A stretch of 64,000 nt of DNA from Nitzschia sp. DOCU1 (lineage: Eukaryota; Bacillariophyta; Bacillariophyceae; Bacillariales; Bacillariaceae). The position numbers and the translations under genes were made by a program. Below the pieces are notes generated by a model. The model saw only the letters and a list, made by a program, of their open reading frames with translations, had not been told where the DNA came from and did no database searches. This document shows, one piece after another, positions 6,501 to 51,225 of the stretch (positions are counted from its first letter, which is position 1; the number at the start of each line of letters is the position of its first letter). The stretch spans positions 1,178,001 through 1,242,000 of the forward strand of contig OX596001.1 in the NCBI GenBank assembly GCA_951394045.1. The letters run 5' to 3'.

Positions 6501-6833
6501 CAATGGCGAGAACCCTAGTCATTCACCAAAGAAGATTCCGTACTGGAAGCCGTGGCCATGGCGACAATTCATTCTGATTCTCATGTTCTTTAGGATTTCG
6601 GCCGTCCGTTGCGGGAACCGTTGCCCTTCCCAAAGAATCTTCGAACATGTGGCAACTCGCCATGATGAAAATTTCAAGCCACCAATAAATTTGCCCCCGC
6701 ATTGTCTGCCGGTCTATGAAAACTCCATTTGGACTTTACAGATTTTGTCTTGTACCTGGCCTGCACCTGCTTCAAAGCGAGCACATACTTTGCCCACAAA
6801 TTGGATCATCTAAACTCTTGAGCCGAAACTAAA

Positions 6834-8292: not shown

Positions 8293-8596
8293 GGTTGTTT
8301 GCCTAGATGAGACCATTTCAGACTCGCATATGACACAGGGGACCAAAAGCAACGTCATGAAATGATAGAGCAGGCGGTTGCTCATTCCCTTTTATAGAAT
8401 CTTAATTTCTAAAACAACCACCACTTCACTTTCTTCGTTTTGCAATTCAGTCAACAGTTCGGACAATGGTCGTTGTCGCATGCCGAAATTGCTCTGCCCA
8501 ATCTTCGAACTACTTTCGTAGCCAAGGAAAAAACTGTTCATACTCGTGCGGTTACTAGTAGAGTATGATACGTCCTCAGTTTGAATACAATCCAAT
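8293..8596. other. Spacer between convergent trefoil-like and pirin genes
   Basis: 3' flanks of two convergent genes. The spacer is duplicated in degraded form at 4830-5088. No further gene is seen. Confidence 0.6.
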
Positions 8597-16787: not shown

Positions 16788-19700
16788 TTAAATGTCGGGT
16801 TCACCGCAAGTGCAGCACTCGCAAGCAATCATATCACAGTCAACCGAAATGGTGGAGAGTCGCTTCTGGTACATGTTATTGCACATTTCTTTGCTGACTT
16901 CGGCCTTGTCAGTTCCACTTCCGCCAACATCGCTGGACAGACCATTCTTGTTGCCCAGGTTGTTGAAGTGGAATGTCGCAGCCTCCAAGTTCGGCAGGTT
17001 AGCCAACTCGGTTGGAATTCCTCCTTCCAACTGGTTTCCGTGCAAGTACAACTGCTTGAGGCGCGGCGGTTGTCCCAACTCCGTTGGGATGGTACCCGTC
17101 AATTGGTTGTCATCCATCATGACGCGGCGCAAGTTCAAACTGCCGAGGTTGGCCGGGATCGTTCCACCGATTTCATTGTTTTCCATCATCATGACCTGCA
17201 AATCAGGCATGGTGCTGGGAATGTTATCAGGCAATGATCCGGTGAAACGATTGTAGGCAATGTCCCAGTACACCATGTCAGGGTATCGGAAGATAAATCC
17301 AGGCATGGGTCCTTCGAACTGGTTGAAGGCAAGGACAAAGGTGTCCAATTCGGACAAGGACGAGTAGTCAGATGGGAAAGTTCCGGTAATCATGTTATCG
17401 GACAAGGTCAACTCATACAGAGAAGACAAGATCGACAACTCGGGGGCCAGAGTTCCTTGGAGACCGTTGTCGTGGATACGTAGAACCTCCATCTGTTCCA
17501 CACGGTTGCACGGGTCCAAACCGAGACGGTTGTACCAGTCACACTCGTGCAAGTCAGACAACCACATGTCGTTCTCCAACCAATCTCCTCCATCCGTCTC
17601 GCAGAAGAAGACGGTGATGGCGTATCGTTGACGAATACGTTCCGATTGGAATTCCAACACATCCTTTCCAGTACGCAACCAGTCACGTGCCTTGGATTGA
17701 CACGTTCCTGGGATATCCATGAGTGCAAGATAACTTGGAGGCATATTGGGGCCAAGACCTTTCATGACGGCTTGGCAAGCCGCATCGTTGGCACAAGGGG
17801 CAAGTCCACTAGGGAACATTTTATCTGTGGCGGTCGGGGCATTGGGGTTATTTCCGAAGAGCGATTCGCCGGTAGTTGGCGCTGCCATCACTGTAGCCGG
17901 GGCGGTGACGTTGGCCAAACCTCCAGCAACCACACCAAGGGCAAGGAAGGTCCAAGCAGCGCATGGAACACCAGTGACGGGCTTGGGCTCGTCGTCCTCT
18001 TCCTCGGTGTACTCGCTCAAATCATCGGGCACAGAATTCAAAATTTCATCATCTTCATCCAAGGGAGACGAAGGCTCAGTAGCAACCATGTCTCTTGGGC
18101 GATCGAAGGGCGCATCGGGGGTGGCTCCAGCCCAATCATAGTTGGGTTCAGACTTTTTCCAGAGCGCGTCATCGGGCAAGTCCCTGTCCCAGCTGTAGTC
18201 GGGTTCCGGCTCTTCGCCTTCACCAGGACGAGGAACAGCGGCCAATTGGTCCGGACGAGCTCCGCTCCTGCAAGAGAGAGGGAGTGTGAGGAAAAACAAA
18301 AAAGTAAGAAACCAGGGAGAAACGAAAGCGAGATGCTGGATTGCCAGGCGAGACTTACCAATCATAAACGGGCTCATTCTTCTTCCAGAGTGCATCTTCG
18401 GGCTTGTCACCCGACCATTCAGCCAAGGGCTTGTCTACCGTCCAGTCCGCGTCGGGGCTGGCAACCTTGTACAAGGCGTCCTCTGGCTTATCAGACGACC
18501 AGTCAAAGTCAGGCTCGTCTCCTTCGCCGGGACGAGGCACGGCCGACAACTTGTCAGGACGAGCTCCGCTCCTTAAAAAACATACAACAAAGGCACAAAA
18601 GAGTGAGATTACGTCCTGAAACGCACCAAATGTCATCACAAAGTGATAAAACGAGACTTACCAATCATACACGGGCTCATTCTTCTTCCAAAGGGCATCC
18701 TCCGGCTTGTCAACGTCCCAGTTGGCATCGGGTCCTCCGCGTGGGTGACGGTCCCAGTCGTAGGGCTGCTCGTCTTCTTCGTCCTCTTCCATAGATGTTG
18801 GACGAGGGATAGCATTAATCGCACCAGGTCGTTCGAAGGGTTCGTCCTCGTCGTCTGGGGCGACAGGAACATGGGGATGGCGTTGCCATCCGTACTCGGG
18901 CTCGTCGGGCATCTTGGGGCGGCCGTCTCGAGGGATAGATCGCACATCTCCTGGGCGTTCGTAAAGGTCATCTTCTTCGGGCATTCCAGGCACCGTTCCG
19001 GCAGGAGGACGTTGCCAAGTCAATTCTGGGAAGTCCTCATCCTTGGGCTTGCCATCTCGAGGAATGGATCGCACGTCACCTGGGCGGTCGTAAATATCCT
19101 CTTCGTCGGGCGTTCCAGGGACCTTGCCCGCAGGTGGTCGCTGCCAAATCATCTCGGGGAAGTCCTCATCCTTCGGCTTGCCATCTCGAGGAATGGAGCG
19201 CACGTCACCGGGACGGTCAAACAAATCAGATTCATCGGGCATTCCGGGGACGGGCTGTTCCGGAGTACGCTGCCAAATCATCTCGGGGAAGTCCTCATCC
19301 TTGGGCTTACCATCTCGAGGAATGGAGCGCACGTCACCGGGACGGTCAAACAAATCAGATTCATCGGGCATTCCGGGGACGGGTTGTTCCGGAGTTCGCT
19401 GCCAAGTCAATTCAGGGAAATTTTCATCCTTGGGCTTGCCATCTCGAGGGATGGAGCGCACATCGCCAGGGCGATCAAACAAATCAGATTCATCGGGAAT
19501 TCCGGGGACAGGTTGTTCCGGCGTTCGCTGCCAAGTCAATTCAGGGAAATCTTCATCCTTGGGTTTGCCATCTCGAGGGATGGAGCGCACATCGCCAGGG
19601 CGATCAAACAAATCAGATTCATCGGGAATTCCGGGGACAGGTTGTTCCGGAGTACGCTGCCAAGTCAATTCAGGGAAATTTTCATCCTTGGGTTTGCCAT

Positions 19701-22700
19701 CGCGGGGGATCGAGCGCACATCGCCAGGCCTGTCGAACAAGTCTTCGTCCTCAGGCACGCCTGGGACTTTCTGGTTTGGCAAACGATCCCAAGACATTTC
19801 CGGGCTATCTTCTGGCTTGGGTTGACCATCTCGAGGGATAGAGCGCACGTCCCCTGGCCTGTCGAACAAATCAGACTCGTCAGGGGCTCCTGGTGCTCTC
19901 GAGCCAGGGAAGCGATCCCACGTTGTCTCCGGGAAGTCTTCATCCTTGGGCTTGCCATCGCGGGGGATCGATCGGATGTCGCCCGGACGATCGAAGACCT
20001 CGAGTGGTTCTTCACCTGGGCTGACAGGCAAAGATCGATTCCAGCTCGTCTCGGGCTCGATCTCCTCGGGGGTGCGTTCACGTGGAATGGAATTCAAGGC
20101 GCCAGGGCGCTCAAACGGGGTATCTTCGTCATCAGGAACGCCAGGGATCTTGTCTTCAGGGCTTCGTTCCCAAGCCATTTCAGGGTATTCATCGCTCTTG
20201 GGTGTACCGTCACGAGGGATGGATCGCACATCACCCGGACGGTCGAACAACGAATCGTCTTTGTCGCCAGGGCCACGAGGCTTATTGGGGGCACGGTCCC
20301 ATTCGGTTGGAGTGTCATCTGGGAACTCTTCTGGTTGGCCTGATCGCGGGTTGACAGGAAGCATTCCTGGGCGATCAAAGGGAGTTTCGAAATCGGGCAC
20401 CCCCGGCATGTCACTTGAGGGGTAGCGCTTCCATTGTAGGTCCGGGGAGTCCTCGTCCTTCGGCTTGCCATCACGGGGGATCGATCGGATATCTCCTGGA
20501 CGATCGAATACGTCCTGATCGTCTTGTTCAGGAGCAGGCTTGAACATCGATCGGGCCCAGTTCAGGTCGTCTTCAGGGATATCCTCGTCTGGGTGAGTTC
20601 TGGGGTGAGAATCAAGCTGTCCTGGACGATCAAAGGGAGTTTCCTCGTCGGGCACACCGGGAACCTTGTCGGACGGGAGGCGTCCCCAGTTCAGCTCGTC
20701 GTTGGGGCTGTCACTCTTAGGTGCGTCGCGTGGCACAGCATTCAGTTGTCCAGGTCGGTCAAATGGAGTTTCCTCGTCATCAACTCCTGGGATATGGTCA
20801 GGTTTAGCTCTCTTCCATTCGTACTCGGGCGTGTCCATGAACTTTGGCTTTCCATCACGAGGAATCGAGCGGACATCTCCAGGTCGGTCGAAAGTTTCGG
20901 AGCTATCAACATCCGTCGGTCGGTCGCCCCCGGGAAGGCGTGTCCAAGCATCGGGTGAATCGCCTTCCATGTCATCTGGCTGCTGAGGGCGAGGAATGGA
21001 ATTGAGCTGTCCGGGTTTGTCAAACGGAATATCTTCGTCAGGGACGCCCGGAACCTTCTGGTTCGGTTGACGGTTCCATTCCGTCTCAGGGACGTCATGA
21101 TCCTTGGGCTTTCCGTCCCTGGGGATGGAGCGGACATCTCCGGGCCGATCGAACGTCTCATCGGTGTCAACATCGTCCGGTTGTTCGCCTCCAGGAAGAC
21201 GGGTCCAACCATCGGGAGAATCGCTGTCCACGTCATCCGGCTGCTGAGGACGAGGGATGGAGTTCAGCTGGCCGGGTTTCTCGAACGGAATTTCCTCGTC
21301 GGGGACTCCGGGGACCTTCTGGTTGGGTTGACGATTCCACTCCTCCTCTGGGTGATCTTGGTCCTTGGGCTTTCCGTCCCTGGGGATCGATCGGACATCA
21401 CCTGGGCGATCAAACGGGGAATCGGAATCCAAGTCCTCCGGGCGCTTTCCTCCAGGGAAGCGGCTCCAGTTATCAGGGGAATCGCCATCAAAGTCACCTG
21501 GCTGCTGAGGTCGAGGGATCGAGCTGAGCTGTCCGGGCTTGTCGAAGGGAGTTTCTTCATCAGGAACACCAGGGAACCTGTCGTTGGGCAAGCGTGTCCA
21601 CTCGCTTTCCGGAGTCTCAAGTTCTTGAGGACGGCCGTCACGAGGGATGGATCGAACATCACCTGGACGATCGAAGGTTCCATCCACGTCATCAGGTCCG
21701 TAAGGCTTGTCTCCTGGGAGTCGGGCCCAGTCGTCCGGAGAATCGCTGTCCATATCTTCCGGTTGGCGAGGGCGAGGGATGGCATTCAATTGTCCAGGTT
21801 TGTCAAAAGGAGTTTCCTCGTCCGGGACGCCGGGGACCTTCTCGTTAGGAAGTCTGTTCCATTCTTCTTCTGGAACATCTTCGGCTGGAGGCTTGCCATC
21901 ACGAGGAATAGATCGAACATCGCCAGGTCTATCAAATGTGCCGTCGACATCATCTGGTCCCTCGGGTTTCTCGCCTGGAAGTCTGGCCCATTCGTCTGGA
22001 GAATCACCTTCCATGTCATCTGGTTGGCGGGGACGAGGGATTGCATTGAGCTGACCTGGTTTATCGAAGGGGGTATCTTCGTCAGGAACTCCGGGAACCT
22101 TCTGGTGAGGAAGACGATTCCATTCCTCCTCTGGGGAGTCCTGGTCCTTTGGCTTTCCATCACGGGGAATGGAGCGAACATCTCCAGGTCGGTCAAACGT
22201 CTCGTCAGAGTCAGCGTCCCCTGGTTTCGTTCCACCAGGGAAACGAGACCATTCATCCGGAGAGTCTCCTTCGAAATCTCCTGGTTGACGGGATTTCGGA
22301 ACAGAACTCGATTGTCCTGGTCGATTGAACGGCGTTTCCTCGTCGGGAACACCAGGGATTCTTTCTGTCGGGTAGCGGCTCCAATCGGACTGGGGTTCCT
22401 CTGGATTGACGGGTTTGCGGTCGCGAGGAATCGACTTAACGTCCCCGGGTCGAACGAAGGGCGTGTCTTGATCCGCAAGCGTTGACGGGGTGGTAGGCAA
22501 GCGTGACCATCCCATGTCGTCGTCCATTGGGCTGTCAACATCATCCCGATCCTTGGGTTCCACTGGAATCTGACCAGGTTTCTCGAAAGGAGGATTGTCA
22601 TCCACAACATCAATGCCGTTGTTCCTCATCCAAGTAAGAACATTTTCGATGTCCTTAGCACGGTCCTCAGGGGTCTGGCCATCCTTGCGCGGCAGCATCT

Positions 22701-25700
22701 GATCAATAGTCTTGAAAGGTACGACGGAAGGTTCGTCATCGTCATCAACGGGTTTAGTTGGCTTCTTGCGAAGCCAATCAATGATGTCATCAAGCTCACT
22801 AGCCTTCGGGCGCCGGTCGATGGGGATGCTCTGCAACTTGTTGAACTTGGGAGTATCATCGAACTTGGGCTCGTCCACTCCTCGGTTGCGCACCCACGTC
22901 AAGGCGTTGTCGATGTCCTTGGCACGATCCTCTGGGGTCTGGCCGGGCTTCTTGGGCAAAAGCTGATCGATGCGCTTGAACGGCTCGGTATCCGGAGAAT
23001 CGTGTTCCTTGGGGTTGCGGACCCAGTTGGTGATATCCTCAAGATCCTTAGCCTTCTGCTCAGGAGTTCGGCTGTCGGGCATAGGGATGTTCTTGGCCGT
23101 CTTGAATGGCTCATCGGGTCCGAACTCAGGCTCGTCGACTCCACGGTTGCGCAACCAGGTCAAAGTGTTATCAATGTCGTTGGCGCGGTCCTCGGGAGAC
23201 TGACCGGGCTTGCGGGGCAACAGCTGGTCGATACGCTTGAAGGGCTCGGTCTTTGGAGTTTCCTTCTCCTTCGGGTTGCGAGCCCAGTTGAGAATATCCT
23301 CAACGTCCTTAGCCTTCTGCTCGGGCGTTCGGTGATCGATGGGGATGCTCTGCAACTTGTTGAACTTGGGAGTATCATCGAACTTGGGCTCGTCCACTCC
23401 TCGGTTGCGCACCCACGTCAAGGCGTTGTCGATGTCCTTGGCACGATCCTCTGGGGTCTGGCCGGGCTTCTTGGGCAAAAGCTGATCGATGCGCTTGAAC
23501 GGCTCGGTATCCGGAGAATCGTGTTCCTTGGGGTTGCGGACCCAGTTGGTGATATCCTCAATATCCTTCTCCTTCTGTTGCGGAGTTCGGCTGTCGGGCA
23601 TAGGGATGTTCTTGGCCGTCTTGAATGGCTCATCGGGTCCGAACTCAGGCTCGTCGACTCCACGGTTGCGCAACCAGGTCAAAGTGTTATCAATGTCGTT
23701 GGCGCGGTCCTCGGGAGACTGACCGGGCTTGCGGGGCAACAGCTGGTCGATACGCTTGAAGGGCTCGGTCTTTGGAGTTTCCTTCTCCTTCGGGTTGCGA
23801 GCCCAGTTGAGAATATCCTCAACGTCCTTAGCCTTCTGCTCGGGCGTTCGGTGATCGATGGGGATGCTCTGCAACTTGTTGAACTTGGGAGTATCATCGA
23901 ACTTGGGCTCGTCCACTCCTCGGTTGCGCACCCACGTCAAGGCGTTGTCGATGTCCTTGGCACGATCCTCTGGGGTCTGGCCGGGCTTCTTGGGCAAAAG
24001 CTGATCGATGCGCTTGAACGGTTCAGCATCGGGGGAATCGTGTTCCTTGGGGTTGCGGACCCAGTTGGCGATATCCTCAATATCCTTAGCCTTCTGCTCA
24101 GGAGTTCGGCTGTCGGGCATAGGGATGTTCTTGGCCGTCTTGAATGGCTCATCGGGTCCGAACTCAGGCTCGTCGACTCCACGGTTGCGCAACCAGGTCA
24201 AAGTGTTATCAATGTCGTTGGCGCGGTCCTCGGGAGACTGACCGGGCTTGCGGGGCAACAGCTGGTCGATACGCTTGAAGGGCTCGGTCTCTGGAGTTTC
24301 CTTCTCCTTCGGGTTACGGGCCCAGTTGAGAATATCCTCAACGTCCTCAGCCTTCTGCTCGGGTGTTCGGCGGTCCATGGGGACGCTCTCCAACTTCTTG
24401 AACTTGGGAGTATCATCGAACTTGGGCTCGTCCACTCCTCGGTTGCGCACCCACGTCAAAGCGTTGTCGATGTCCTTGGCACGATCCTCCGGGGTCTGGC
24501 CGGGCTTCTTGGGCAAAAGCTGATCGATGCGCTTGAACGGCTCGGTTTCCGGGGAATCGTGTTCCTTGGGGTTGCGGACCCAGTTGGTGATATCCTCAAT
24601 ATCCTTCTCCTTCTGTTGCGGAGTTCGGCTGTCGGGCATAGGGATGTTCTTGGCCGTCTTGAATGGCTCATCGGGTCCGAACTCAGGCTCGTCGACTCCA
24701 CGGTTACGCAACCAGGTCAAAGTGTTATCAATGTCGTTGGCGCGGTCCTCGGGAGATTGACCGGGCTTGCGGGGCAACAGCTGGTCGATACGCTTGAAGG
24801 GCTCGGTCTCTGGAGTTTCCTTCTCCTTCGGGTTACGGGCCCAGTTGAGAATATCCTCAACGTCCTTAGCCTTCTGCTCGGGCGTTCGGCGGTCCATGGG
24901 GACGCTCTCCAACTTCTTGAACTTGGGAGTATCATCGAACTTGGGCTCGTCCACTCCTCGGTTGCGCACCCACGTCAAAGCGTTGTCGATGTCCTTGGCA
25001 CGATCCTCCGGGGTCTGACCGGGCTTCTTGGGCAAAAGCTGATCGATGCGCTTGAACGGCTCGGTTTCCGGGGAATCGTGTTCCTTGGGGTTGCGGACCC
25101 AGTTGGAGATATCCTCAATATCCTTAGCCTTCTGCTCAGGAGTTCGGCTGTCGGGCATAGGGATGTTCTTGGCCGTCTTGAATGGCTCATCGGGTCCGAA
25201 CTCAGGCTCGTCGACTCCACGGTTACGCAACCAGGTCAAAGTGTTATCAATGTCGTTGGCGCGGTCCTCGGGAGATTGACCGGGCTTGCGGGGCAACAGC
25301 TGGTCGATACGCTTGAAGGGCTCGGTCTCTGGAGTTTCCTTCTCCTTCGGGTTACGGGCCCAGTTGAGAATATCCTCAACGTCCTTAGCCTTCTGCTCGG
25401 GCGTTCGGCGGTCCATGGGGACGCTCTCCAACTTCTTGAACTTGGGAGTATCATCGAACTTGGGCTCGTCCACTCCTCGGTTGCGCACCCACGTCAAAGC
25501 GTTGTCGATGTCCTTGGCACGATCCTCTGGGGTCTGGCCGGGCTTCTTGGGCAAAAGCTGATCGATGCGCTTGAACGGCTCGGTTTCCGGGGAATCGTGT
25601 TCCTTGGGGTTGCGGACCCAGTTGGTGATATCCTCAATATCCTTAGCCTTCTGCTCAGGAGTTCGGCTGTCGGGCATAGGGATGTTCTTGGCCGTCTTGA

Positions 25701-28700
25701 ATGGCTCATCGGGTCCGAACTCAGGCTCGTCGACTCCACGGTTACGCAACCAGGTCAAAGTGTTATCAATGTCGTTGGCGCGGTCCTCGGGAGATTGACC
25801 GGGCTTGCGGGGCAACAGCTGGTCGATACGCTTGAAGGGCTCGGTCTCTGGAGTTTCCTTCTCCTTCGGGTTACGGGCCCAGTTGAGAATATCCTCAACG
25901 TCCTTAGCCTTCTGCTCGGGCGTTCGGCGGTCCATGGGGACGCTCTCCAACTTCTTGAACTTGGGAGTATCATCGAACTTGGGCTCGTCCACTCCTCGGT
26001 TGCGCACCCACGTCAAAGCGTTGTCGATGTCCTTGGCACGATCCTCTGGGGTCTGGCCGGGCTTCTTGGGCAAAAGCTGATCGATGCGCTTGAACGGCTC
26101 GGTTTCCGGGGAATCGTGTTCCTTGGGGTTGCGGACCCAGTTGGTGATATCCTCAATATCCTTAGCCTTCTGCTCAGGAGTTCGGCTGTCGGGCATAGGG
26201 ATGTTCTTGGCCGTCTTGAATGGCTCATCGGGTCCGAACTCAGGCTCGTCGACTCCACGGTTACGCAACCAGGTCAAAGTGTTATCAATGTCGTTGGCGC
26301 GGTCCTCGGGAGATTGACCGGGCTTGCGGGGCAACAGCTGGTCGATACGCTTGAAGGGCTCGGTCTCTGGAGTTTCCTTCTCCTTCGGGTTACGGGCCCA
26401 GTTGAGAATATCCTCAACGTCCTTAGCCTTCTGCTCGGGCGTTCGGCGGTCCATGGGGACGCTCTCCAACTTCTTGAACTTGGGAGTATCATCGAACTTG
26501 GGCTCGTCCACTCCTCGGTTGCGCACCCACGTCAAAGCGTTGTCGATGTCCTTGGCACGATCCTCCGGGGTCTGACCGGGCTTCTTGGGCAAAAGCTGAT
26601 CGATGCGCTTGAACGGCTCGGTTTCCGGGGAATCGTGTTCCTTGGGGTTGCGGACCCAGTTGGAGATATCCTCAATATCCTTAGCCTTCTGCTCAGGAGT
26701 TCGGCTGTCGGGCATAGGGATGTTCTTGGCCGTCTTGAATGGCTCATCGGGTCCGAACTCAGGCTCGTCGACTCCACGGTTACGCAACCAGGTCAAAGTG
26801 TTATCAATGTCGTTGGCGCGGTCCTCGGGAGATTGACCGGGCTTGCGGGGCAACAGCTGGTCGATACGCTTGAAGGGCTCGGTCTCTGGAGTTTCCTTCT
26901 CCTTCGGGTTACGGGCCCAGTTGAGAATATCCTCAACGTCCTTAGCCTTCTGCTCGGGCGTTCGGCGGTCCATGGGGACGCTCTCCAACTTCTTGAACTT
27001 GGGAGTATCATCGAACTTGGGCTCGTCCACTCCTCGGTTGCGCACCCACGTCAAAGCGTTGTCGATGTCCTTGGCACGATCCTCTGGGGTCTGGCCGGGC
27101 TTCTTGGGCAAAAGCTGATCGATGCGCTTGAACGGCTCGGTTTCCGGGGAATCGTGTTCCTTGGGGTTGCGGACCCAGTTGGTGATATCCTCAATATCCT
27201 TAGCCTTCTGCTCAGGAGTTCGGCTGTCGGGCATAGGGATGTTCTTGGCCGTCTTGAATGGCTCATCGGGTCCGAACTCAGGCTCGTCGACTCCACGGTT
27301 ACGCAACCAGGTCAAAGTGTTATCAATGTCGTTGGCGCGGTCCTCGGGAGATTGACCGGGCTTGCGGGGCAACAGCTGGTCGATACGCTTGAAGGGCTCG
27401 GTCTCTGGAGTTTCCTTCTCCTTCGGGTTACGGGCCCAGTTGAGAATATCCTCAACGTCCTTAGCCTTCTGCTCGGGCGTTCGGCGGTCCATGGGGACGC
27501 TCTCCAACTTCTTGAACTTGGGAGTATCATCGAACTTGGGCTCGTCCACTCCTCGGTTGCGCACCCACGTCAAAGCGTTGTCGATGTCCTTGGCACGATC
27601 CTCCGGGGTCTGACCGGGCTTCTTGGGCAAAAGCTGATCGATGCGCTTGAACGGTTCAGCATCGGGGGTATCGTGGGCCTTGGGGTTGCGGACCCAGTTG
27701 GTGATATCCTCAATATCCTTGGCCTTCTGCTGAGGAGTTCGACCATCCGGCATCGAAATGCTCGAGACTGGCTTGAACGGTGAATCGGGTCCGAACTCAG
27801 GCTCGTCGACTCCACGGTTGCGCAACCAGGTCAAAGTGTTATCAATGTCGTTGGCGCGGTCCTCGGGGGTCTGTCCAGGCTTCTTGGGAAGGAGCTGGTC
27901 GATACGCTTGAAGGGCTCAGTCTCGGGGGTGTCGTTCACCTTCGGGTTGCGGGCCCAGTTGAGAATATCCTCAACGTCCTTGGCCTTCTGCTCGGGCGTT
28001 CGACGGTCCATGGGGATGCTCTGCAACTTCTTGAAATTGGGGGTATCATCGAACTCGGGCTCGTCAACTCCTCGGTTGCGCACCCACGTCAAAGCGTTGT
28101 CGATGTCCTTGGCACGATCCTCTGGGGTCTGGCCGGGCTTCTTGGGCAAAAGCTGATCGATGCGCTTGAACGGTTCAGCATCGGGAGTATCGTGGGCCTT
28201 GGGGTTGCGGACCCAGTTGGTGATGTCCTCAATATCCTTGGCCTTCTGCTGAGGAGTTCGACCATCCGGCATTGAAATGCTCGAGACTGGCTTGAACGGT
28301 GAATCGGGTCCGAACTCAGGCTCGTCGACTCCACGGTTGCGCAACCAGGTCAAAGTGTTATCAATGTCGTTGGCGCGGTCCTCGGGGGTCTGTCCAGGCT
28401 TCTTGGGAAGGAGCTGGTCGATACGCTTGAAGGGCTCAGTCTCGGGGGTGTCGTTCACCTTCGGGTTGCGGGCCCAGTTGAGAATATCCTCAACGTCCTT
28501 GGCCTTCTGCTCGGGCGTTCGGCGGTCCATGGGGATGCTCTGCAACTTCTTGAAATTGGGGGTATCATCGAACTCGGGCTCGTCAACTCCTCGGTTGCGC
28601 ACCCACGTCAAAGCGTTGTCGATGTCCTTGGCACGATCCTCTGGGGTCTGGCCGGGCTTCTTGGGCAAAAGCTGATCGATGCGCTTGAACGGTTCAGCAT

Positions 28701-40700: not shown

Positions 40701-43700
40701 GCTCAGGCGATCGGCGGGAAATCGGCTGAGGCGGTACCTTCGCAAAAGGAGCGTCTTTGCCATCGAACGCTGGGCTGACTCCTTGCTGGCGTGCCCAATC
40801 GAGAGCTCCTTCTATCTCACGAGCGCGATCCTCCGGGGTCTGTCCACGCTTGATGGGAAGCAACGCGTCCATCTTGCGGAATTCTCCTGTGGGGTCAAGG
40901 ATGTCGTCGTTCTTGCCCTTGTTGCGGAGCCAGTTCAGGGCATCGTTAGTGTCCTTCTGGCGCTGCTCGGGAGTGCGTCGGGCCATGGGGACAGTTCCGA
41001 TCTTCTTGAAGATTTCAGAAGCGTCATCCTGGGTTGGGGAGACATCGTTTGAACGCATCCAATCAAGGGCGTTTTCAATCTCGCGGGCACGGTCTTCTGG
41101 GGACTGCTTCTTCTTCTTGGGGATGAATTGATCAATCTTCTTGAAGTTTCCAGTAGGATCATCAGAAGACTTCTTGCCGTTTCGAATCCAGTTGAATGCA
41201 GCATCCAGATCTTGCTTGCGTTGCTCGGGTGTTCGGCGGGACACAGGAACCGTGTCCAACTTGTCGAATCCAGGGAGAGGCTCCTCCGTGACGGGGCCGA
41301 CACTTCGATCACGTAACCAATCAAGGGCACCTTCGATGTCTCGAGCCCTATCCTCGCTCTTTTGACCGGCCTTCACAGGCAACAAAGCATCCAGCTTTCT
41401 GAATTCACCAGTTGGATCAGTGGTGTCATCATTGTTGCCCTTGTTTCGCATCCAGTTCAAACAATCCTCCAAATCTCTCTTCCTCTGCTCAGGCGTGCGG
41501 CGAGAGAGGGGAACGGTATCAACCTTGTTGAATTGCTCCAACGAGTCAACGCCCTCGGGGGTGACACTGTGGTTTCGCATCCAGTCCATGGCCCCTTCAA
41601 TATCGCGGGCACGATCCTCGGGGGTCTCGCCACGCTTTACGGGCAAAGTGGCATCCATCTTGCGGAACTCTCCGGTCGGGTCTAGGACATCATCGTTCTT
41701 GCCCTTGTTGCGCATCCAGTTGAGAGCATTATCGAGTTGCTTGAGTCTCGCTTCCGGAGATCGACGAGCGATATGCGCCGAGCCAGCCTTGCTGAAGGTG
41801 GGCAGGGGTTCTTCGCTCGAAGGAGAAACTCCTTTGTGGCGAGCCCAGTCCAATGCTCCCTCGATGGCTTGAGCACGATCTTCCGGGGTCTGTCCACTCT
41901 TCTTGGGGAGAGCGGCATCCAACTTGCGGAAATCACCAGTTGGGTCGAGGGCTTCGTCGTTCTTGCCCTTGTTTCGCAACCAGTTCAGAGCATCCTCGGA
42001 ATCCTTCTTACGTTGTTCTGGAGTACGTCCCGTAACGGGGACTGTTCCAGCCTTGCTGAATTGGGAAACGAATTCTTCGTCGTCGGCAGAGATGTCACGG
42101 TTTCGTAGCCAATCCAAAGCACCCTCAATCTCACGCGAGCGCTCCTCGGGCGTTTGTCCGATTCTTCGTGGCAAAACTTGATCAATCTTTCGGAAGTCAC
42201 CAGTGGGATCGTCGCCAGGCTTTCGCCCATTTCGCACCCAGTTCAGAGCGTCGCTCACGTCACGTGCGCGCTCTTCAGGGGTTCGTTGGCAAATAGGGAC
42301 GGCGCCAAACTTGTTGAAGGCAGGGAGGCTGTCATCAAAAGCTGGGTTGACGTCTTTGTGGCGGGCCCAGTCGAGAGCACTTTCGATTTGACGGGCACGG
42401 TCTTCTTCAGTCTGACCTCTCTTCGTCGGCAGAGAAGCATCAAGCTTTCGAAAGTTTCCAGTAGGATCCAAACCGTCGTCATTCTTTCCCTTGTTTCGAA
42501 GCCAGTTCATGGCATCAACCAAGTCCTTGGCTCGCTGTTCGGGGGTTCGGAGAGAGATGGGGACGGATCCCATTTTGTTGAAGGCCTCTAGATCGTCGAC
42601 GGCCACAGGCGAGACGCCGTTGTTCCTCATCCAATCCATGGCACCTTCGATGTCACGGGCACGCTCCTCGGGGGTTTGGCCTGGTCTGGCAGGTGGCAAC
42701 ATCTGGTCAATCTTCTTGAATTCACCGGTAGGATCTTCAGAATCATGTTTGCCGTTTCTCAGCCAGTTCAAGGCCGAAACCAGTTCGTCCTTCCTCTCTT
42801 CAGGCGATCGGACTGCAACAGGAACAGAGGAGATGGGCTTCATGGGTTCAACGTCGTCGTCGACCGACGGCTTGGCTCCGCTGGTTCGGACCCAATCCAT
42901 AGCGCCTTCGATGTCGCGAGCGCGTTCTTCGATAGTCTGGCCCTTCTTGCGCGGAAGCATGGCGTCCAACTTTCGGAAATCGGAAGTAGGATCGGTTTCT
43001 TCGTCGCTCTTGCCCTTCTTGCGCAACCAATTCATGGCATCGTCTAGGTCCTTGACTCGCTGCTCAGGAGTACGGCGAGAAACAGGGATGGTTCCGAGTC
43101 GTTTGAACTTCTCGAGAGGCGCAACATCTCCGGGCTTAACGTCATTGTTACGCATCCAATCAAGTGCACCCTCAATATCACGCGCACGGTCTTCGACGGT
43201 GCCTCGTTTTTTCTTGGGCAAAAGCTTGTCGAGCTTCTTGAATTCGCCGGTGGGGTCGTACTTCTTCTCCTTCTTCGATCCCTTGTTGCGAAGGAAGTTG
43301 AGGGCATTGTCCAGATCACCCATGCGCTGTTCAGGGGAGCGCTTGGTGATTGGCAGAGAGCCCACCATTTCCATTGGAGGCATGGCATCAACTTCGCCCT
43401 CCTTTGGCTCGCTGCTTCGGATCCAGTCGAGAGCTCCTTCGATCTCTCTTGCACGCTCTTCCGGGGTTTGCCCAGCCTTGCGAGGAAGCATGGCATCCAA
43501 CTTGCGGAAATCGCCAGTAGGATCTGAAGTCTTGTCGTCCTTGCCCTTGTTGCGAATCCAATTCATCGTGTCCGCAAGGTCCCTCGCCCGTTGTTCGGGC
43601 GTTCGGCGCGAGAAAGGCGCCTGTCCGGCCTTCTTGAACAAGGGAGCGAGTCCGGGGTCTTCTGGGCGTACTTCATGGTTTCGAATCCAGTCCATGACAC

Positions 43701-46700
43701 TTTCGATATCACGTGCGCGATCGTTCGGCTCTTGTCCCTTCTTGCGGGGGATCAGCTGGTCCAGCTTCTGGAATTCACCAGTAGGGTCGTACTTTTCTTT
43801 CTTCTTGTGGCGAATCCAGTTCATTGCGTTGCTGAGATCGCGAGCACGCTCCTCGGGAGAGCGCTTGCAAACAGGGAGGGAGCCGAGCTTGGAAAAATCA
43901 GCGGGTTCCTCGTCATCGGCAGGGGCTACTCCCTGGTTCCTCATCCAGTCCAAGGCCCCTTCCAACTCGCGGGCTCGTTCCTCGGCAGTTTGCCCCCGCT
44001 TCTTCGGCATCATGGCGTCCAATTTGCGAAACTCGCCGTTGGGATCGTTAACATCATCATTTTTTCCCATGCTTCGGATCCAGTTGAGAGCATTTTGGTA
44101 GTCTTGGGCGCGTTCCTCGGGAGTCCGACGTCCAATAGAAGTCATATCAACTGTCTCGAAACCAGGAGTGGGCTCATCTTCCACGGCATCTGCTCCCCCG
44201 CTTCGCAACCAGTCCAAGGCACCTTCGATTTCTCGGGCGCGCTGCTCAGGGGTCTGGCTCTTCTTCTTGGGTAGCAACGAGTCCAACTTGCGGAATTCGC
44301 CCTCGGGGTCGTACTTATCCTCTTTCTTCTGGCCCTTGCCCTTACCCTTTCGCATCCAGTTCATGACCTTCTCGAGGTCCTTAGCACGTTCCTCGGGCGA
44401 GCGACGGCCGATGTCAACCGTCGGTGCCTTCGTGAAGCCTAGCTTGCTTTCGTCAACACCATCGGGTGTGATTCCAGCGTTTCGGAGCCAGTTGAGAGCG
44501 TTCTGCATTTCAATGGCGCGCTCTTCGGCGGTCTGGCCCTTTCGTGGAGGCAACATGGAGTCAATCTTCTGGAACACGCCCGATGGATCTTCCTCCTTGC
44601 CTCCCTTGTTACGAAGCCAGTTGAGAGCATCCTGCATCTCCTTGGCGACCTCTTCGGGGCTTCGTTTTCCAGCGCTCTTGAAGTCGGCTTTCTCGAAGTC
44701 TGGGATACCGAGATCTCCCTCGTCGCTCACCAGGCCCTTTCCGCGCATCCAACCAAGAGCGTTCTGCATCTCCTTGGCACGGTCTTCAGGGGACTGACCC
44801 GCCTTCTTAGGCAGAGAAGCATCAAGCTTCTTGAAAACGCCAGTAGGATCGAAAAGCATGTCATCGGCAACGCTATCCTTGTTTCGCAACCAGTTTAAAG
44901 CTGCCTCCATTTCCTTCTGGCGTTCTTCTGGGCTTTTCTTAGTGGAAGAGGCGAAGCCGGCCTTGTCGAAGCCAGGAGAGTCGAGGTCGACATCTTCGCT
45001 AGCGAGTCCCTTGCTGCGCATCCAGGCAAGAGCATTCTCCATCTCTTTCGCACGGTCTTCGGGAGACTGTCCCGCCTTCTTGGGCAAGGAAGCATCTAGT
45101 GTCTTGAAAACACCAGAAGGATCGAATGAGTTGTTGTCAGCAGTGTCCTTGTTTCGCAACCAGGCCAACGCGGCCTCCATTTCCTTCTGACGTTCCTCGG
45201 GGCTCTTCTTAGTCGATGGGACGAAGCCGACCTTCTCGAAGTCAGGCATGCCTAGTTCTGCCTCGTCGCTCACAAGTCCCTTGCCGCGCATCCACGCAAG
45301 AGCGTTCTCCATATCCTTAGCACGATCTTCAGGGGACTGGCCCGCCTTCTTGGGCAAAGAAGCATCCAGTTTCTTGAAAACGCCGGTAGGATCGAAAAGG
45401 ATGTCGTTGTCGACACTGTCCTTGTTCCGCAACCAGGCCAACGCAGCGTCGATTTCCGCTTGGCGCTCTTCCGGAGATTTTCTGCTGGCGGAAGCAAATC
45501 CCGCCTTATTGAAAGACGGGTCTTCGGGCTCTTCCACGCTGACGTCCAAACCTTGCTGACGCATCCAGTTCATGGCCTTTTCGAGATCCTTGGCGCGGTC
45601 CTCGGCGGACTGGCCCTTCTTCTTCGGCATGGTAGCATCAAGCTTACGGAAGACTCCATCGGGGTCGTACTCGTCGTCCTTCTCTCCTTTGTTTCGGATC
45701 CAGTTCAAAGCATCTTGCAGGTCTTTGGCCCTTTCCTCGGCAGAACGAGTAGATGCAGAAACACCTCCGACCTTCTTGAAATCGGGGACATCAAACTCTT
45801 CGGCATCGGAGGGGTCAAGACCACGGTTACGCATCCATCCCAAAGCAGCGGAAATGTCCTTCGCGCGCTCCTCGAGAGTTTGTCCCTTTTTCTGTGGCAA
45901 ACTGGCATGGAGCTGCTTGAACACACCCGTGGGGTCCAAGGTGACGTCGCTCTGGTTACGCAACCATGCGAAAGCGGCAGCTTCGTCTCGGCTCTTGCCA
46001 TCGGAACCTGGGCGGTGGCCAACAGACGCTCCCCCGACTGGAGTAAAGCCTTCAACGTCAGGATCGTTCAAGTCATCCAGATTTACCCCCTGTGCACGCA
46101 GCCAGGCAAGGGCATTCTCCATATCCTTCGCTCGCTCCATCTCGGACTGTCCAGGGGCAGCGGCTCCAACAAACTTGTCCAGCTTGGAAAAGATGCTGTC
46201 AGGGTCCTCCTTTTCTCCCCCGTTGCGTAACCAGTTCAGGGCATCGCGCATGTCAGCGTCACGCTGTTCTTGGGAACGAGGAGCAAGTTTGACTCCACCG
46301 ACCTTGTCGAACGAAAGATCACCGTCGTCATCATAATCCAGGTTCAGGCCATTGGCACGCAACCAAGCCAAAGCATTCTCCATATCGGCGGCACGTTCTT
46401 CGGGCGCTTGTCCTTGCTTGCGTGGGATCAAGCTGTCCAACTGCGCAAAGCCAGAGTCGGGATAGTCATCGAAGCTATCACCCTTGTTGCGCAACCAGTT
46501 CAAGGCCTTGAGGCGGTCAGCATCACGCTCTTCTTGGGAACGGAAGCCCATGGGAACAATACCGAGTGTGTCGAAGCTCTCCACGGGAGTATCGTCCTCC
46601 TCAAGGTCCAAGCCTTGGTTGCGCAACCAAGCAAGAGCGTCTTCCATCTCCTTGGCTCGGTCTTCCTCGCTTTGTCCGGCCTTCTTGGGCAATATCTTCT

Positions 46701-49700
46701 CGAGCTTCTCGAACTTATCGTCGTCATCTCCACCAGATCGACGTCCACGCAGCCAGGCCAGAGCATCCTCCATCTCGCTGGCATTGGATTCGGCGCCAAG
46801 AGGCTTGAAGCCGTCGCCCAAACCATAGGCATCAAAATCAGGAGCATCGTCAAAGTCCGCATCACCCTTGTTGCGGAGCCAGCCAAGAGCCTTGTTCATG
46901 GCTTCGGCCTTAAGCTGCTCCGGGGTCTTGGCACTAGCTCCAGCGCCTGTACCAACCTTGGAAAAGGGATCGTCCAAATCGTCGAGCATGCTTGGGTCTT
47001 TGTTGCGGAGCCAGTCCAAGGCCTTAGCCATCTCATTGGCCTTGTCTTGGGCCGAGCGGCCATGGGCATCAACCGACGAGAACTTGTCGCTGTAGTCAGA
47101 GAAGTCAGGAACGTCGTCGCTGTCAAAGGCAGCACCATTGGAACGCAACCAATCCAAGGCCTTGTTCATCTGGGCTGCCTTTTGCTGTTCCTTCGACTTG
47201 GGAACAAACCCTAGACCATCGAGGGTCGAGAAATCGCTGTCATCGATATCCTCCATGTTTTCGGGGTTCTTGGTACGCAACCAGGCAAGAGCATTGTCCA
47301 ACTCCTTCTCGTCTCCAAAAACTCCGCTCTTGAGTGTAGAGAACTTCGAGTCGTACGTTTCAAGGGTGGGATCGTCCTCCACGTCGTCACCAGCGGTGGC
47401 GTTCTTGCGCAACCAGGCCAAAGCATCGGACATTTGATTCGCACGGAGCTCCTCGGCGGTCTTGGGGCGGACACCTACAGAGTCGAACTTGGTAGACTCG
47501 TCATCGTCCTTGTCATCAAAAGCCGGGTGCTTGCTCGTGCCAGCCGACTGCTTGCGAAGCCAGTCCAAGGCCGACGCATCACCCTTGCTCTCGGAAGCCC
47601 TAGAGCCAATAGCATGGAAGGAACCGACGGATCCCAATCCCAAAGAGATATCGTCATCAATGACATCGTCAGTGCTGCTGTTCTTGAGCCAATCCAAGGC
47701 AGAGGCCATTTCTTCGGCACGCTTCTCCTCTTCCGACTTGGGGCGAACTCCAGCAAAGGGCTTGCGTCCAGGAGCCGATTGATCGTCTTCGTCCTCCACG
47801 CCTTCCGCCTTGGCAGCTTGACGTTGACGCAACCAATCGAGAGCACCGCTGAATCCCGACTCCTTAATGTTGCTAGCCAAACCAGTCTTGTTCAAGACAT
47901 TATCAATCTTCTTGAACGAGTTGGCAGTAGCATCATCAACATCGGTCTTGGTACGCAACCAGGCCAACGCCGAAGACATGTCGGTAGGAGCGTCCTTTTC
48001 ACCCGACTTGGGCATGAGCGAATCAATCTTCTTGAAGGAAGCCAAAGACATGGCCACAGAAACGTCATCGTCAACATCGAGTTCGGCATCGTTGTGCTTG
48101 AGCCAATCCAAGGCAGACGCCATTTCTTGGGCACGCTTTTGCTCGTCCGACAAGGCAGTGACACCAGCACCCATACCGACAGGCTTCATGGGGGCCGTTT
48201 CCATAACTCCCAAGGTCTCTTGAATCTCTTCCATCATCTTGGATCGGAACCAGTCCAAGTTGGAGGCGTCCGGGACGTCCAAGGCAGGATGCTTGATATC
48301 GTACCAAGCCTGCGCCAACTGATCAAGTTTCTTCATCTTGTCCGCATCGGCAGGGATCTTGCCAGTAGTATCAATCGAGAACTGATTGCGTTTCCACCAC
48401 TCAATCGAATCCTCAATATCCTTGGCAATAGCCTTGGGCTTGCTCGACTTTTTGTAACCCCAGACATGGAAGATCTTGGCGAGATCTTGAGCACGTTCAT
48501 CTTCGACTTGATCGACATCAAAGTCCTTGGACTTGCCACGCATCCAGCGAATGGTAGCGTTGATCTCCTTGGCAGCCTCCTCGCGCTGCTCCTTGGACAT
48601 GTTAGCCTTTTGCCACAACTGCGCAAGCTTTTGGGCCTTGATGAAGTTCTCTTCATCTTCCATATCCTTGGACACGTCCATGTTCTTGCCATTGCGTTGC
48701 CACCAATTCAAGGAATCTGCCACATCGGCCGCGATCTTCTTGGCCTCCTTGGCACTCAGGTACTTGAATTCGTGTTCACCGATACCTCCATTCCCACGAT
48801 GCCAGTCGGCCAAGGTATCACTCACGACCTTGTGACGCATCATGGCAGGAACTGCTTCCAGGCGTTGTTCGACGGCATCATAATCCTTGCCCTTCTTCTT
48901 CCACCAGTTCATGGCATTGATCATGTCCTTGACAGTCTGCTCAGCTTCGGTCTTGCCCAGGTTGGAGGCATTGTGACGACGCCACGCCAAGAAGGCTTCC
49001 TTGAGTTTGGCCAAGAGAGCGCGTTCCTTGGGCTTCAACACCTTGATGGACTCGATATCAAACGTCTTGCCGTGATCACGCCACAAGTTGATGGCCTCTT
49101 GAATCTCTTCGGCATCCTTCTTGGTACGCTTCCAGGTAAAGGTTTGCTCGATATTCTTGTTGGGCTTCCAATGATCGACCAAGAGCTTGATCTTTTCCGC
49201 CGAAAAGACATCAGGAGGTCGGGCTGTCTTGGGATTAAAGGCTTCACCTTCATTACGCCACCAATCCAAAGTAGCATCCATTTCTCGAGCGACACCATCA
49301 GCCTCGTCGGCCAAAAGTTCGGAAGATTCCGCATGACGCAAACGCCAATCCATCATGGCTTGTTGCAAACGACGGAATTTAGCACCCTCCTCGCCAGAGT
49401 ATTGATCAAAAATCTCGGGATTGTAACCATTGCGTCTAAAGAAAATGAGAGCATCGGCAATTTCCTTGAGTTGTTCGGGAGTCGGATCGACCTTGTACCC
49501 CCACAACTTCAAGAGACCTTGCGCCTTTTGGAATTCGGGAGAAGCATCGGCTTGCGCCAAATCCTCAATCTTGCTGCCTTTGGATTGATACCACTCCAAT
49601 ACGCCCGCGAGTTGACTGGACAAGGCCTTCATGGACGAAGGAGTCAATTGATCACGCTTCAATTGCAAAAGAGCTTGTTCGACCATTTTGAGTTGAGCCG

Positions 49701-51225
49701 CCGTATCGGCATCCAATTGATCCATGGGAGTATCCTTGTACTTGGCCCAAAGCCCTAGAGCTTGTTTCATGGCCTTGGTACGAGCATCCCAGTCATCACC
49801 TTCCTTGTATCCAAACTTGCTCAACAAAGTCTTGCAATTGCGGAACATGAGGGAATCTTCTTCGGAAGCCATGAGAGGATCATAGCTCGAAGCATGAGCA
49901 TTCCACCATTTCAAAGCGGATTCCAGTTCGGTCGCGGAATTGTCTTGTTGGAGTTGCCAGTCGACTAGGAGGTCTTTGACGCGATTCATGGCCTGAAGGT
50001 AATGAGGATGAGATTCATCAAAACGTCCCGACAAGACAAGCTCCAAGCACGCTTGAAGGTCTTGAGCACGTCTCAAAGCTTCTTGCTTGTTGGTGCGAGC
50101 ATCAAACTTTGTCCATTCGGGGACAGGCAAGCCCTTGAGTTGCCATCCACCAAACAAGTCATTGACGCGAGTAAAGGTGGAAAGTTCCAGCTCCAATTCT
50201 TTGACATTGGCAACGTGTTGCTGGCCCTGGGTGGACCACCACTGAACGGCTTCTCGCAATTCCCGAGCCTTGGCTTCCGCCGACAATTCGGGCTTGCCGT
50301 ACGTTTTCAAAGCCTTGGTGACTTTGAGGGCCTTTTTCTTGTCCTTGGGATACGACTTGGCCGAACTAGGCACATAGTTAGCGTTAGCAGACCACCATTC
50401 GAGGATTTTCTTCATTTCCAAAGTATCATCCACACCCTGGGGGGCACCCGCCATGGCGCTACCGTCCTCATTTTGATACATTTTGGACCACCAATCCATA
50501 GCCGAAGCCATACGCTGAGCCCGTTCGGCGGCTTCCTGAGCGGATTTGGAGTGCTTGGCCTTTGGGGCGGCCGTAAAGCGAGACGCGACGCTCTTATCGT
50601 CTCCAGAAATACCCAGTTTCTTCTTTTGCGCATTTTCTTCTTGCTTTTGCTTGAGCATGGACATTAGGTCCGGCATGTCTTCCGTTTTAAAGTCCGTGTT
50701 ATTCGAAAACAGAGACACATCGTCTGCTGCTGAGGCACTAGCGGCATCTTCTTGTTCCCACCAGTTATCACCACCGGTAAACAAACCCGCTCCTGGCGCA
50801 GGAGCTGGCTCCGGTTCGGGTTCTGCCCCAGACGTCAACCAGGCCATGGCGTTGGCCATTTCATTCGCTCGACGCTGTGCTTCATCGGCATTTCCCTTGG
50901 CGACGGCAGCCTTGGGTTTCGTCTGATACTTGGCGGAAGCCACAGTGGATTCATCATCGACACCTGCGAGTTGCGTCACCATGCGTCCAATCGACGTGAA
51001 GAGACTGGGGGCATCTTCTTGCAAAGGCTCGATCGTGTCCTTGCCGCGTTTGACGGCTCCACTGGGCTTGGCGAGTCCTGCCTGAGCCATGCGGCCTGTG
51101 GAGACACGTCCACCGGTAATACCGCGGCCTCGACCGGCACGTCCCGCACGTCCCGGGGGAGGGACTCCTGCCGAACTAGTCGAGCTATTATCATCTTCTT
51201 CGGTTCCAAGTGTCCACCAACCCAT
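16788..51225 (-). CDS. Giant repeat rod protein with C-terminal transmembrane segment and LRR ectodomain (11,418 aa, 3 exons)
   Basis: Exon 1 is 51225-18662, exon 2 is 18571-18359 and exon 3 is 18267-16788. Their sum is 34,257 nt, divisible by three. The ATG at 51225 has an in-frame TAG only 18 nt upstream, so it is the first usable start. Domains in order: Gly/Arg-rich head (1-80); about twelve W-rich modules (80-995, cores such as MDWWSK, LDWWRN); acidic ALDWLR modules (about 1,020-1,740); regular modules of about 43 aa with a PE(D/Q)RA-(D/E)(I/L)-W(L/M/V)RN core (to about 9,530); Pro-rich repeats RPGDVRSIPRDGKP (about 9,550-10,840); DKPEDALWKKNEPVYDW units; one membrane span (about 11,026-11,055); an LRR N-cap with Cys; seven to eight LRRs (LKQLYLHGNQLEGGIPTEL type, about 11,184-11,365); and a Cys-rich end (CDMIACECCTCG). 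There is no signal peptide, so the rod should be cytosolic and the LRRs extracytoplasmic (signal-anchor topology). Diatom LRR receptor-like proteins have this anchor-LRR layout but far smaller N-terminal regions. The function is unknown. Confidence 0.85.
16947..17495 (-). other. LRR domain of the giant protein
   Basis: Seven clear and one partial plant-type leucine-rich repeats (LxxLxLxxNxLxGxIP), for example LRRVMMDDNQLTGTIPTELG. They are preceded by an N-cap with the motif RQRYAITVFFCETDGGDWL...HECDW and followed by a Cys-rich C-cap. Such domains bind peptide or glycan ligands or partner proteins. This one is predicted outside the cytoplasm. Confidence 0.9.
17880..17969 (-). other. Single transmembrane segment of the giant protein
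   Basis: Residues about 11,026-11,055, with core AAWTFLALGVVAGGLANV, follow a strongly acidic stretch (SEYTEEEDDEP). As the only long hydrophobic stretch in the protein it should act as a signal anchor. The orientation (rod inside, LRR outside) is inferred from family precedent. Confidence 0.75.
18268..18358 (-). other. Intron 2 of the giant gene (91 bp)
   Basis: Donor GATTG|GTAAGTCTCG and acceptor CTCTCTCTTGCAG|GAGCGGAGC. Removing it rebuilds a Trp codon (TG+G) and continues ...NEPVYDW-SGARPDQL... in frame. The donor is identical over ten bases to that of intron 1. Confidence 0.9.
18359..18571 (-). repeat. Exon 2: duplicated 71-codon exon
   Basis: Symmetric exon (phase 2 on both sides, 213 nt). 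It begins SGARPDKLSAVPRPGEG, nearly the same as the start of exon 3 (SGARPDQLAAVPRPGEG), and ends DKPEDALWKKNEPVYDW, the same as the end of exon 1. The exon and its flanking intron therefore arose by tandem duplication and can be added or removed without changing the frame. Confidence 0.85.
18572..18661 (-). other. Intron 1 of the giant gene (90 bp)
   Basis: Donor GATTG|GTAAGTCTCG immediately after NEPVYD, acceptor TTTTTTAAG|GAGCGGAGC. Without splicing, translation stops at TAA (18660-18658) inside the donor. With splicing the frame stays open into exon 2 at the same phase. Confidence 0.9.
18720..22570 (-). repeat. Pro-rich neck repeats (RPGDVRSIPRDG units)
   Basis: Roughly 30 tandem units of about 40-45 aa, many with the core FDRPGDVRSIPRDGKPK followed by an acidic spacer, a W-x-R and VPGxPDE. 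Two unit types alternate over part of the region (RPGDVRSIPRDG and KPGQLNAIPRPRQP). The units nearest the membrane are the most uniform (19000-19750). Proline and charge content predict an extended, flexible neck between the helical rod and the membrane. Confidence 0.85.
22814..31117 (-). repeat. Homogenised 519-bp tandem array, 16 units
   Basis: The same landmark (CGGTCGATGGGGATGCTCTG) occurs at 22814 and 31118, exactly 16 x 519 bp apart. Intermediate landmarks recur at constant 519-bp steps, so there is no net indel. Each unit encodes 173 aa, that is, four modules of about 43 aa in two unlike pairs. Two subfamilies are evident: units below about 27,650 carry KTAKNIPMPDSRTPEQ, those above carry KPVSSISMPDGRTPQQ. 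Several single-base markers recur with a 1,557-bp (three-unit) period between about 24,450 and 27,570, which suggests recent block duplication. Confidence 0.93.
31118..46000 (-). repeat. Diverged rod modules (about 43-aa units, about 86-aa pairs)
   Basis: The same module series as the 519-bp array but much more diverged. One member of each pair has (S/T)PE-RA-(D/E)IE-ALDWMRNxGV, the other RRTPEQR-KDLDxxLNWLRN followed by DPTGEFKK(I/L)DxxLP. The tryptophan and the flanking Arg-Asn are nearly invariant while spacers vary, consistent with purifying selection on a folded helical repeat. Confidence 0.85.
33740..38780 (-). repeat. Second block of recently duplicated rod segments
   Basis: A long, nearly identical segment recurs with equivalent points at 34355, 35651, 36683 and 37976, with spacings of 1,296, 1,032 and 1,293 bp. 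These are close to multiples of the 258-bp module pair (5, 4 and 5). It encodes GVSPDDESLPPAFQKAGSVP and neighbouring modules. This is a higher-order repeat independent of the 519-bp array. Confidence 0.85.
46000..48160 (-). repeat. Acidic ALDWLR modules
   Basis: Irregular modules with cores such as EMASALDWLK and EMEDALAWLR, separated by Asp-rich spacers (DDDVSVAMSL, DDDDKFEKLE). They connect the W-rich N-terminal domain to the regular rod. They look like evolutionary intermediates: a single Trp per core instead of WW, and not yet the strict PE-R pairing. Confidence 0.8.
48240..50990 (-). repeat. N-terminal W-rich modules
   Basis: About a dozen modules of about 85-90 aa with a (D/E)-A-(D/N/E)WW---G core, for example SAMDWWSKMYQNEDG, ATLDWWRNEGEAFNP, NAMNWWKKKGKDYDA and SLNWWQRNGKNMDV. 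Each has a second helix ending in -LxxW. They are strongly helical and charged. The family is unrecognised but clearly related to the DWLRN modules. Confidence 0.8.

Follow-up and report, generated by a model that had tools for sequence, protein, structure and literature searches.

In this work we asked whether a single diatom gene can encode an unbroken protein of 11,418 residues and, if so, what such a chain might do in the cell. The question is raised by the window, by which we mean the whole 64,000-nucleotide stretch analysed here (C17:1178001-1242000 of genome assembly G000, which comprises 52,080,636 bases in 63 contigs). The original prediction placed in it a three-exon gene for a membrane protein consisting of a W-rich part, a rod, a Pro-rich neck, one membrane span, a leucine-rich repeat (LRR) domain and a Cys cap.

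The gene and the joining of its parts

All features of the gene lie on the minus strand, and when the frame and the splicing were recomputed they gave the same coordinates, exons, introns and length as had been predicted. An open frame of 10,855 codons runs from 51225 to 18661, stop-free across 32.6 kb. Exon 1 (18662..51225, residues 1-10855) carries the W-rich part, the rod and most of the neck, and its last codon is completed across intron 1 (18572..18661, 90 bp). It is followed by exon 2 (18359..18571, 213 bp, residues 10856-10926), intron 2 (18268..18358, 91 bp) and exon 3 (16788..18267, residues 10927-11418 and the stop), which encodes the end of the neck, the membrane segment, the N-cap, the LRR domain and the Cys cap. 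Both introns are of the GT-AG type, and the related protein P0014 is continuous over both splice junctions (YDW/SGGRPDKLAAVPRPGEG and YDW/AGARPEQLAAVPRP). The spliced coding sequence of 34,257 nt is an exact multiple of three and yields 11,418 residues and one terminal stop, with a predicted mass of 1.30 MDa and a pI of 4.95. The order of the parts was likewise borne out.

Could selection be keeping this frame open? Exon 1 contains no stops in the coding frame, compared with 194 and 713 in the other sense frames and 61, 146 and 403 in the antisense frames. Since periodicity by itself may keep a tandem repeat free of stops, these counts are insufficient and other controls weigh more. Decayed partial copies of the giant gene are present elsewhere in the genome, on C4 and C5, with 83-95% identity in each aligned piece. 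In BLAST alignments to exon 1 from which overlapping pieces were dropped, 9 of 14, 14 of 18 and 8 of 17 of their indels have lengths not divisible by three (3,782, 4,012 and 2,422 aligned columns, respectively). The first two of these copies end at the same point and appear to be duplicates of one another, and do not count as independent controls. Between nearby 43-codon units of the gene dN/dS is about 0.39, as estimated from 86 of 435 unit pairs, the remaining 349 being identical or having a pS of at least 0.6. The frame is intact in exon 1 and in the spliced coding sequence of this assembly. The decayed copies are found at positions 1-6000 of L009 and 1000-8000 of L011, close to where contigs C4 and C5 begin, and at C5:52-55k and 70-71k. 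The giant gene is also flanked by an inverted duplication (window 1-2924 on the plus strand and 53503-56381 on the minus strand, 86% over 2,939 columns) with a second piece (1-524 and 57025-57563, 74% over 542 columns); it holds long open frames for Cys-rich and Pro/Ser-rich proteins on opposite strands.

The search for relatives in other diatoms that had been suggested with the original prediction did find partial chains of the same design. A query of 800 rod residues gave 13 matches among 7,994 scored candidates and a query of the last 700 residues gave 257 among 7,996 scored (120 listed), the searches being bounded by protein length. The rod relatives include P0001, a Bacillariaceae MAG protein, the Psemu1 models P0009 and P0011 (Psemu1 is presumably Pseudo-nitzschia multiseries) and P0010, an MMETSP entry with taxid 37318, Pseudo-nitzschia pungens. 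Organism labels are attached to 4 of the 13, and all four are Bacillariaceae, which are raphid pennates. MMETSP is a transcriptome set according to the excerpted text of PMC6261938.

P0007 joins the W-rich part (48136..51225, residues 1-1030) to the rod (22561..48135, residues 1031-9555), with 355 of 800 columns identical and collinear from about window residue 880. P0010, which is a transcript, and P0012 join the rod to the acidic Pro-rich neck, the exon 1 portion of which (18664..22560, residues 9556-10854) extends through exon 2 and into exon 3. Among the matches listed, P0014, P0018, P0020, P0022, P0023, P0024 and P0026 span 98-100% of the 700-residue query at 49-69% identity and thus link the neck, the membrane segment and the LRR in one chain. 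Every neighbouring pair of parts is therefore joined in at least one relative; a relative spanning all of them was not seen among the matches examined. Together with the intact frame, these joined pairs support the prediction of one gene and one putative polypeptide. Relatives lend little support to the first 880 or so residues: part of P0013 is similar to residues 33-158, and a decayed copy matches from about residue 662. In P0013, which is 684 residues long, rod modules come first and the piece resembling residues 33-158 follows close to the end, which looks like a permuted order of parts. A more divergent set (P0042-P0047, P0050 and P0051) combines a neck of the DWNRN or a similar type with a membrane segment and a head; W-L/V-R modules with a different spacing also occur, eleven in P0051 and three in P0050.

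The rod module and the two histories of the rod

The rod contains 195 Trp, mostly spaced by 43-44 residues. Counted along the protein, the Trp-to-Trp distance is 43 or 44 in 186 of 280 intervals. A module HMM gave 208 matches between residues 118 and 9547, 198 of them with i-E < 0.01, and the earliest, which are weak, are the few copies located inside the W-rich part. The modules mostly alternate between two types, and a loose pattern counts 96 two-module units. The neck retains the 43-44 residue period and the W-R register, with a weak profile match to the rod. Because the W-rich part has weak module copies and the neck keeps the period, W-rich part, rod and neck may form a single repeat series that varies from one end to the other. 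The three had been described as distinct; their order holds, and their separateness may not, the weak match of neck to rod being kept in mind.

The AlphaFold run on a few modules proposed with the original prediction was partly successful. For four modules, using an alignment of 64 segments which all come from the window protein, the whole model was poor (mean pLDDT 69.4, pTM 0.36). Within it, helices at 60-75, 83-94 and 103-119 have a block pLDDT of 78-86, with low-confidence linkers between them. Nothing in the PDB matches the model at E 0.001 or better, and we found no convincing Pfam or PDB relative of the module; the Pfam scan covered six pieces (residues 1-10854 and 10927-11418). The same two-module unit stands alone in other proteins of the genome, and with the helix blocks of the model this suggests that the folding unit is probably two modules, about 86 residues forming three helices and a linker, repeated about 96 times in series. 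We infer that the chain has about 96 beads, each about 60 residues long and separated from the next by a linker of about 26. At 0.36 nm per residue, we estimate that a taut chain of folded beads and neck would reach roughly 1.5-2 micrometres.

Rod units alone or in short runs occur in proteins encoded at C14:320-328k and C4:3612-3619k, and in the parts seen these proteins have no LRR or membrane segment. The first locus (L037, C14:320002-327822) is a 3,435-residue open frame with isolated two-module units, and stretches at the start of contig C8 (C8:2209-3348) score the same, as if copied. The second (L012 and L013) is a cluster of small proteins with short runs of rod modules, some with Lys-rich tails. 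In two of these proteins the domain start is MGCTAST, which we take to be a possible lipid-anchor motif.

Is the rod a single entity? It is continuous, but its early part is ordered, and a young expansion within it makes up about a quarter of the whole protein. We compared module order using one segment per Trp of each relative. In P0004, P0005 and P0006, 24, 23 and 23 segments best match window modules in strictly rising order (rho 1.00) over window residues 1,131-2,601, P0004 skipping 2 and 8 window modules; this defines an ordered early rod at 43366..47898 (residues ~1110-2620). P0003 follows window residues 3,303-4,133 for 18 of 20 segments and P0002 does so for 13 of 20. In P0001 and P0009 the order is not kept one-for-one with the window. 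P0010 and P0012 have segments like window residues 6,245-6,505 and then the neck. In the late array (22786..31185, residues ~6681-9480) a unit of four modules (173 residues, 519 bp) recurs 16 times at exact spacing. DNA identity between neighbours is 89-99.8% for 14 of the 15 pairs and falls to 52% for the remaining one, at the array end. When 228 module segments from 11 relatives were matched to the protein, none had its best match in the array. The array, about a quarter of the whole chain, is thus young and lineage-specific. The copy number of the array is the part of the gene most open to assembly error. The ordered early modules suggest specific partners, and the uniform array suggests length or compliance, or else drift.

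P0002 and P0004-P0006, which are predicted pieces of relatives, break off at one and the same place in the module (after IE..AL); P0002 and P0003 begin just past such a place. For both P0002 and P0006 the longest contig listed is 22,019 bases. It may be that these shared break points mark introns between modules, where the window has one uninterrupted exon.

The membrane segment and the LRR head

Exon 3 matches the Pfam families LRR_1 (57.0 bits) and LRR_8 (41.6 bits), both above the cut-offs, and in the head model the LRR domain (16947..17501, residues 11182-11366) has a block pLDDT of 84-97 behind a Cys-bearing helical N-cap (17502..17798, residues 11083-11181); a C-terminal Cys cap (16791..16904, residues 11381-11418) closes the chain. 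The N-cap is the best conserved part, with 59-92% identity in the closer relatives except P0015, which is 99-100% identical, and 55-60% in the divergent set. The LRR is 49-86% and 42-47% identical in these two groups, and the stalk varies. Ten Cys are invariant across 37 sequences, and the head has no N-glycosylation sequons, compared with 3.3 expected from its composition. A sequence similar to the rod motif (e.g. ALDWLRNKG), ARDWLRTGKD, occurs in the N-cap at residues ~11110-11130. Elsewhere in the genome the best match of the head reaches 119.8 bits (29% identity), compared with 1,156.5 for itself (87 of 466 candidates scored), a weak match which suggests that the head is single-copy.

Upstream of the head is a hydrophobic segment (17913..17969, residues 11026-11044, VPCAAWTFLALGVVAGGLA). 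It lies in the sole stretch with a Kyte-Doolittle value above 1.6 (residues 11022-11046, maximum 1.78); before residue 11000 no stretch rises above 0.89, so that neither an N-terminal signal nor a second span was seen. The 36 aligned relatives have values from 1.28 to 2.66, and TGVP stands at the start of the segment in 26 of 26 closer relatives. The single membrane span of the original prediction may correspond to a single conserved hydrophobic segment, but one that is weakly hydrophobic (four other LRR proteins of the genome reach 2.32-3.05) and has an acidic inner flank, which runs against the positive-inside rule. The most likely topology is a predicted single-pass one, with the N-terminus inside and the C-terminus outside or in a vesicle lumen.

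These features support the earlier assignment to LRR membrane proteins of diatom type. MRP2 and MRM2 of Pseudo-nitzschia multistriata are described in the excerpted text of PMC6261938 as kinase-less transmembrane LRR proteins. The window protein shares with them an LRR domain and a putative transmembrane region and has no recognisable kinase. As far as their description (not their sequence) allows a comparison, it differs in its predicted intracellular part of about 11,000 residues with a module not named in Pfam, in its weaker membrane segment with the acidic flank and in its head, which is conserved across relatives and not fast-changing. In their best rows other LRR proteins of its own genome are 29-38% identical to the head.

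Plant LRR receptors carry kinases. The best solved structures matching the head are plant LRR proteins, among them LRX8 and LRR ectodomains (best Foldseek E 1.5e-13); the fold is all they have in common, since the best matches are 19-33% identical. No kinase domain is among the Pfam matches in the six pieces (residues 1-10854 and 10927-11418), and we rejected a plant-type LRR receptor kinase for want of a cytosolic kinase there. Titin, spectrin and other elastic giants carry serial small domains on a giant chain, a likeness in how they work only; the same six pieces have no Ig, Fn3 or spectrin domain among their Pfam matches, and membership in these families was rejected.

The window protein is not the only giant of its LRR family in the genome. 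At C9:774-801k (C9:774000-801000; L023, L034, L035 and L036) we found an open frame of 8,999 residues with a Ser/Glu/Asp-rich repeat tail of 195-bp period, a strong membrane segment and two LRR heads. It resembles the window protein in its giant N-terminal region, its membrane segment and the family of its heads, and differs in its repeat, in the strength of the segment and in having two heads; in the parts examined it has no module of the window type. The original prediction knew of no diatom LRR receptor-like protein with a rod of more than 10,000 residues, and we also found no description of such a protein in the open-licence PMC literature.

What the chain may do

What could such a protein be for? 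We give about even chances to a single-pass membrane protein whose giant intracellular part serves as a tether or scaffold beneath a conserved LRR head. Each module pair is predicted to fold as three helices and a flexible linker, like beads on a string, and the cytosolic chain would be a long, extensible and multivalent tether or scaffold. The N-terminal part and the individually conserved early modules would hold specific intracellular partners, the late near-identical array would add reach and compliance and differ between lineages, and the LRR head would hold a conserved partner across the membrane.

The same modules could also gather cytosolic partners under an LRR receptor with no mechanical role, the length of the chain being set by valency. 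We regard such a docking scaffold as possible and somewhat unlikely. The single modules and short runs at C14:320-328k and C4:3612-3619k fit a general interaction module, and the early modules are individually conserved; however, 16 near-uniform units look more like length or dosage, which does not separate the two readings. Alternatively, the length might be largely neutral, with unequal exchange inflating the array and the cell tolerating a size that has no function of its own. The youth of the array, its near-identical neighbours and its absence from the best matches of the relatives agree with this, as do the decayed rod copies near contig starts. As an account of the whole chain we find it doubtful, because the frame is kept throughout and the rods of relatives lacking the array (P0001-P0008) are still long; it could hold for the array without holding for the remainder. 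An artefact of the model or assembly, in which several genes are joined on paper or repeats collapsed or expanded, seems extremely improbable. An assembler could miscount the 519-bp copies, and the gene is known here from genome sequence alone, but in relatives every two neighbouring parts occur together in a single chain, and the frame is intact over 32.6 kb.

Other readings concern the place of the chain. If the hydrophobic stretch were no topogenic signal, the whole chain could be outside or luminal and the rod an extracellular adhesive. The weak span with its acidic rather than positive flank would suit this, yet there is no N-terminal hydrophobic stretch, the rod has 15 Cys in 8,520 residues compared with 12 in the 369-residue head, and in the four related LRR proteins of the genome the spans are strong and flanked N-terminally by basic residues. 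We consider it very improbable. Could the protein instead organise silica or the cell wall, with its head in the lumen of the silica vesicle or under the wall and its acidic chain organising the vesicle membrane from the cytosol? It is of diatom type with a conserved head, and the net charge is -218 for the rod and -175 for the neck, but we found no paper in the open-licence PMC literature connecting LRR proteins with the silicalemma, and this role is quite improbable.

The cytosolic tether or scaffold that we prefer also admits a more specific reading. In the excerpted text of PMC11420354, the model of diatom gliding requires a continuum across the plasma membrane whose existence has yet to be explored, a transmembrane link of the gliding complex is proposed, and mechanical compliance is inferred from cells moving slower than their myosins. 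The window protein might be the missing membrane-crossing link, its head on the raphe adhesive strand and its chain of about 96 beads and micrometre reach on the actin-myosin track, where it would supply the compliance. Its appeal is that it would supply both the transmembrane continuum that the current model calls for and the compliance that this model infers; we nevertheless consider it decidedly unlikely. If the cell makes it in the form modelled here, the protein would rank as a very large membrane protein, at about 1.30 MDa, with a small helical module as its building block. It is also a clear example of a giant protein in which an older, ordered part is combined with a young one that resembles a satellite. 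Its conserved head and taggable ends make the membrane link of gliding testable.
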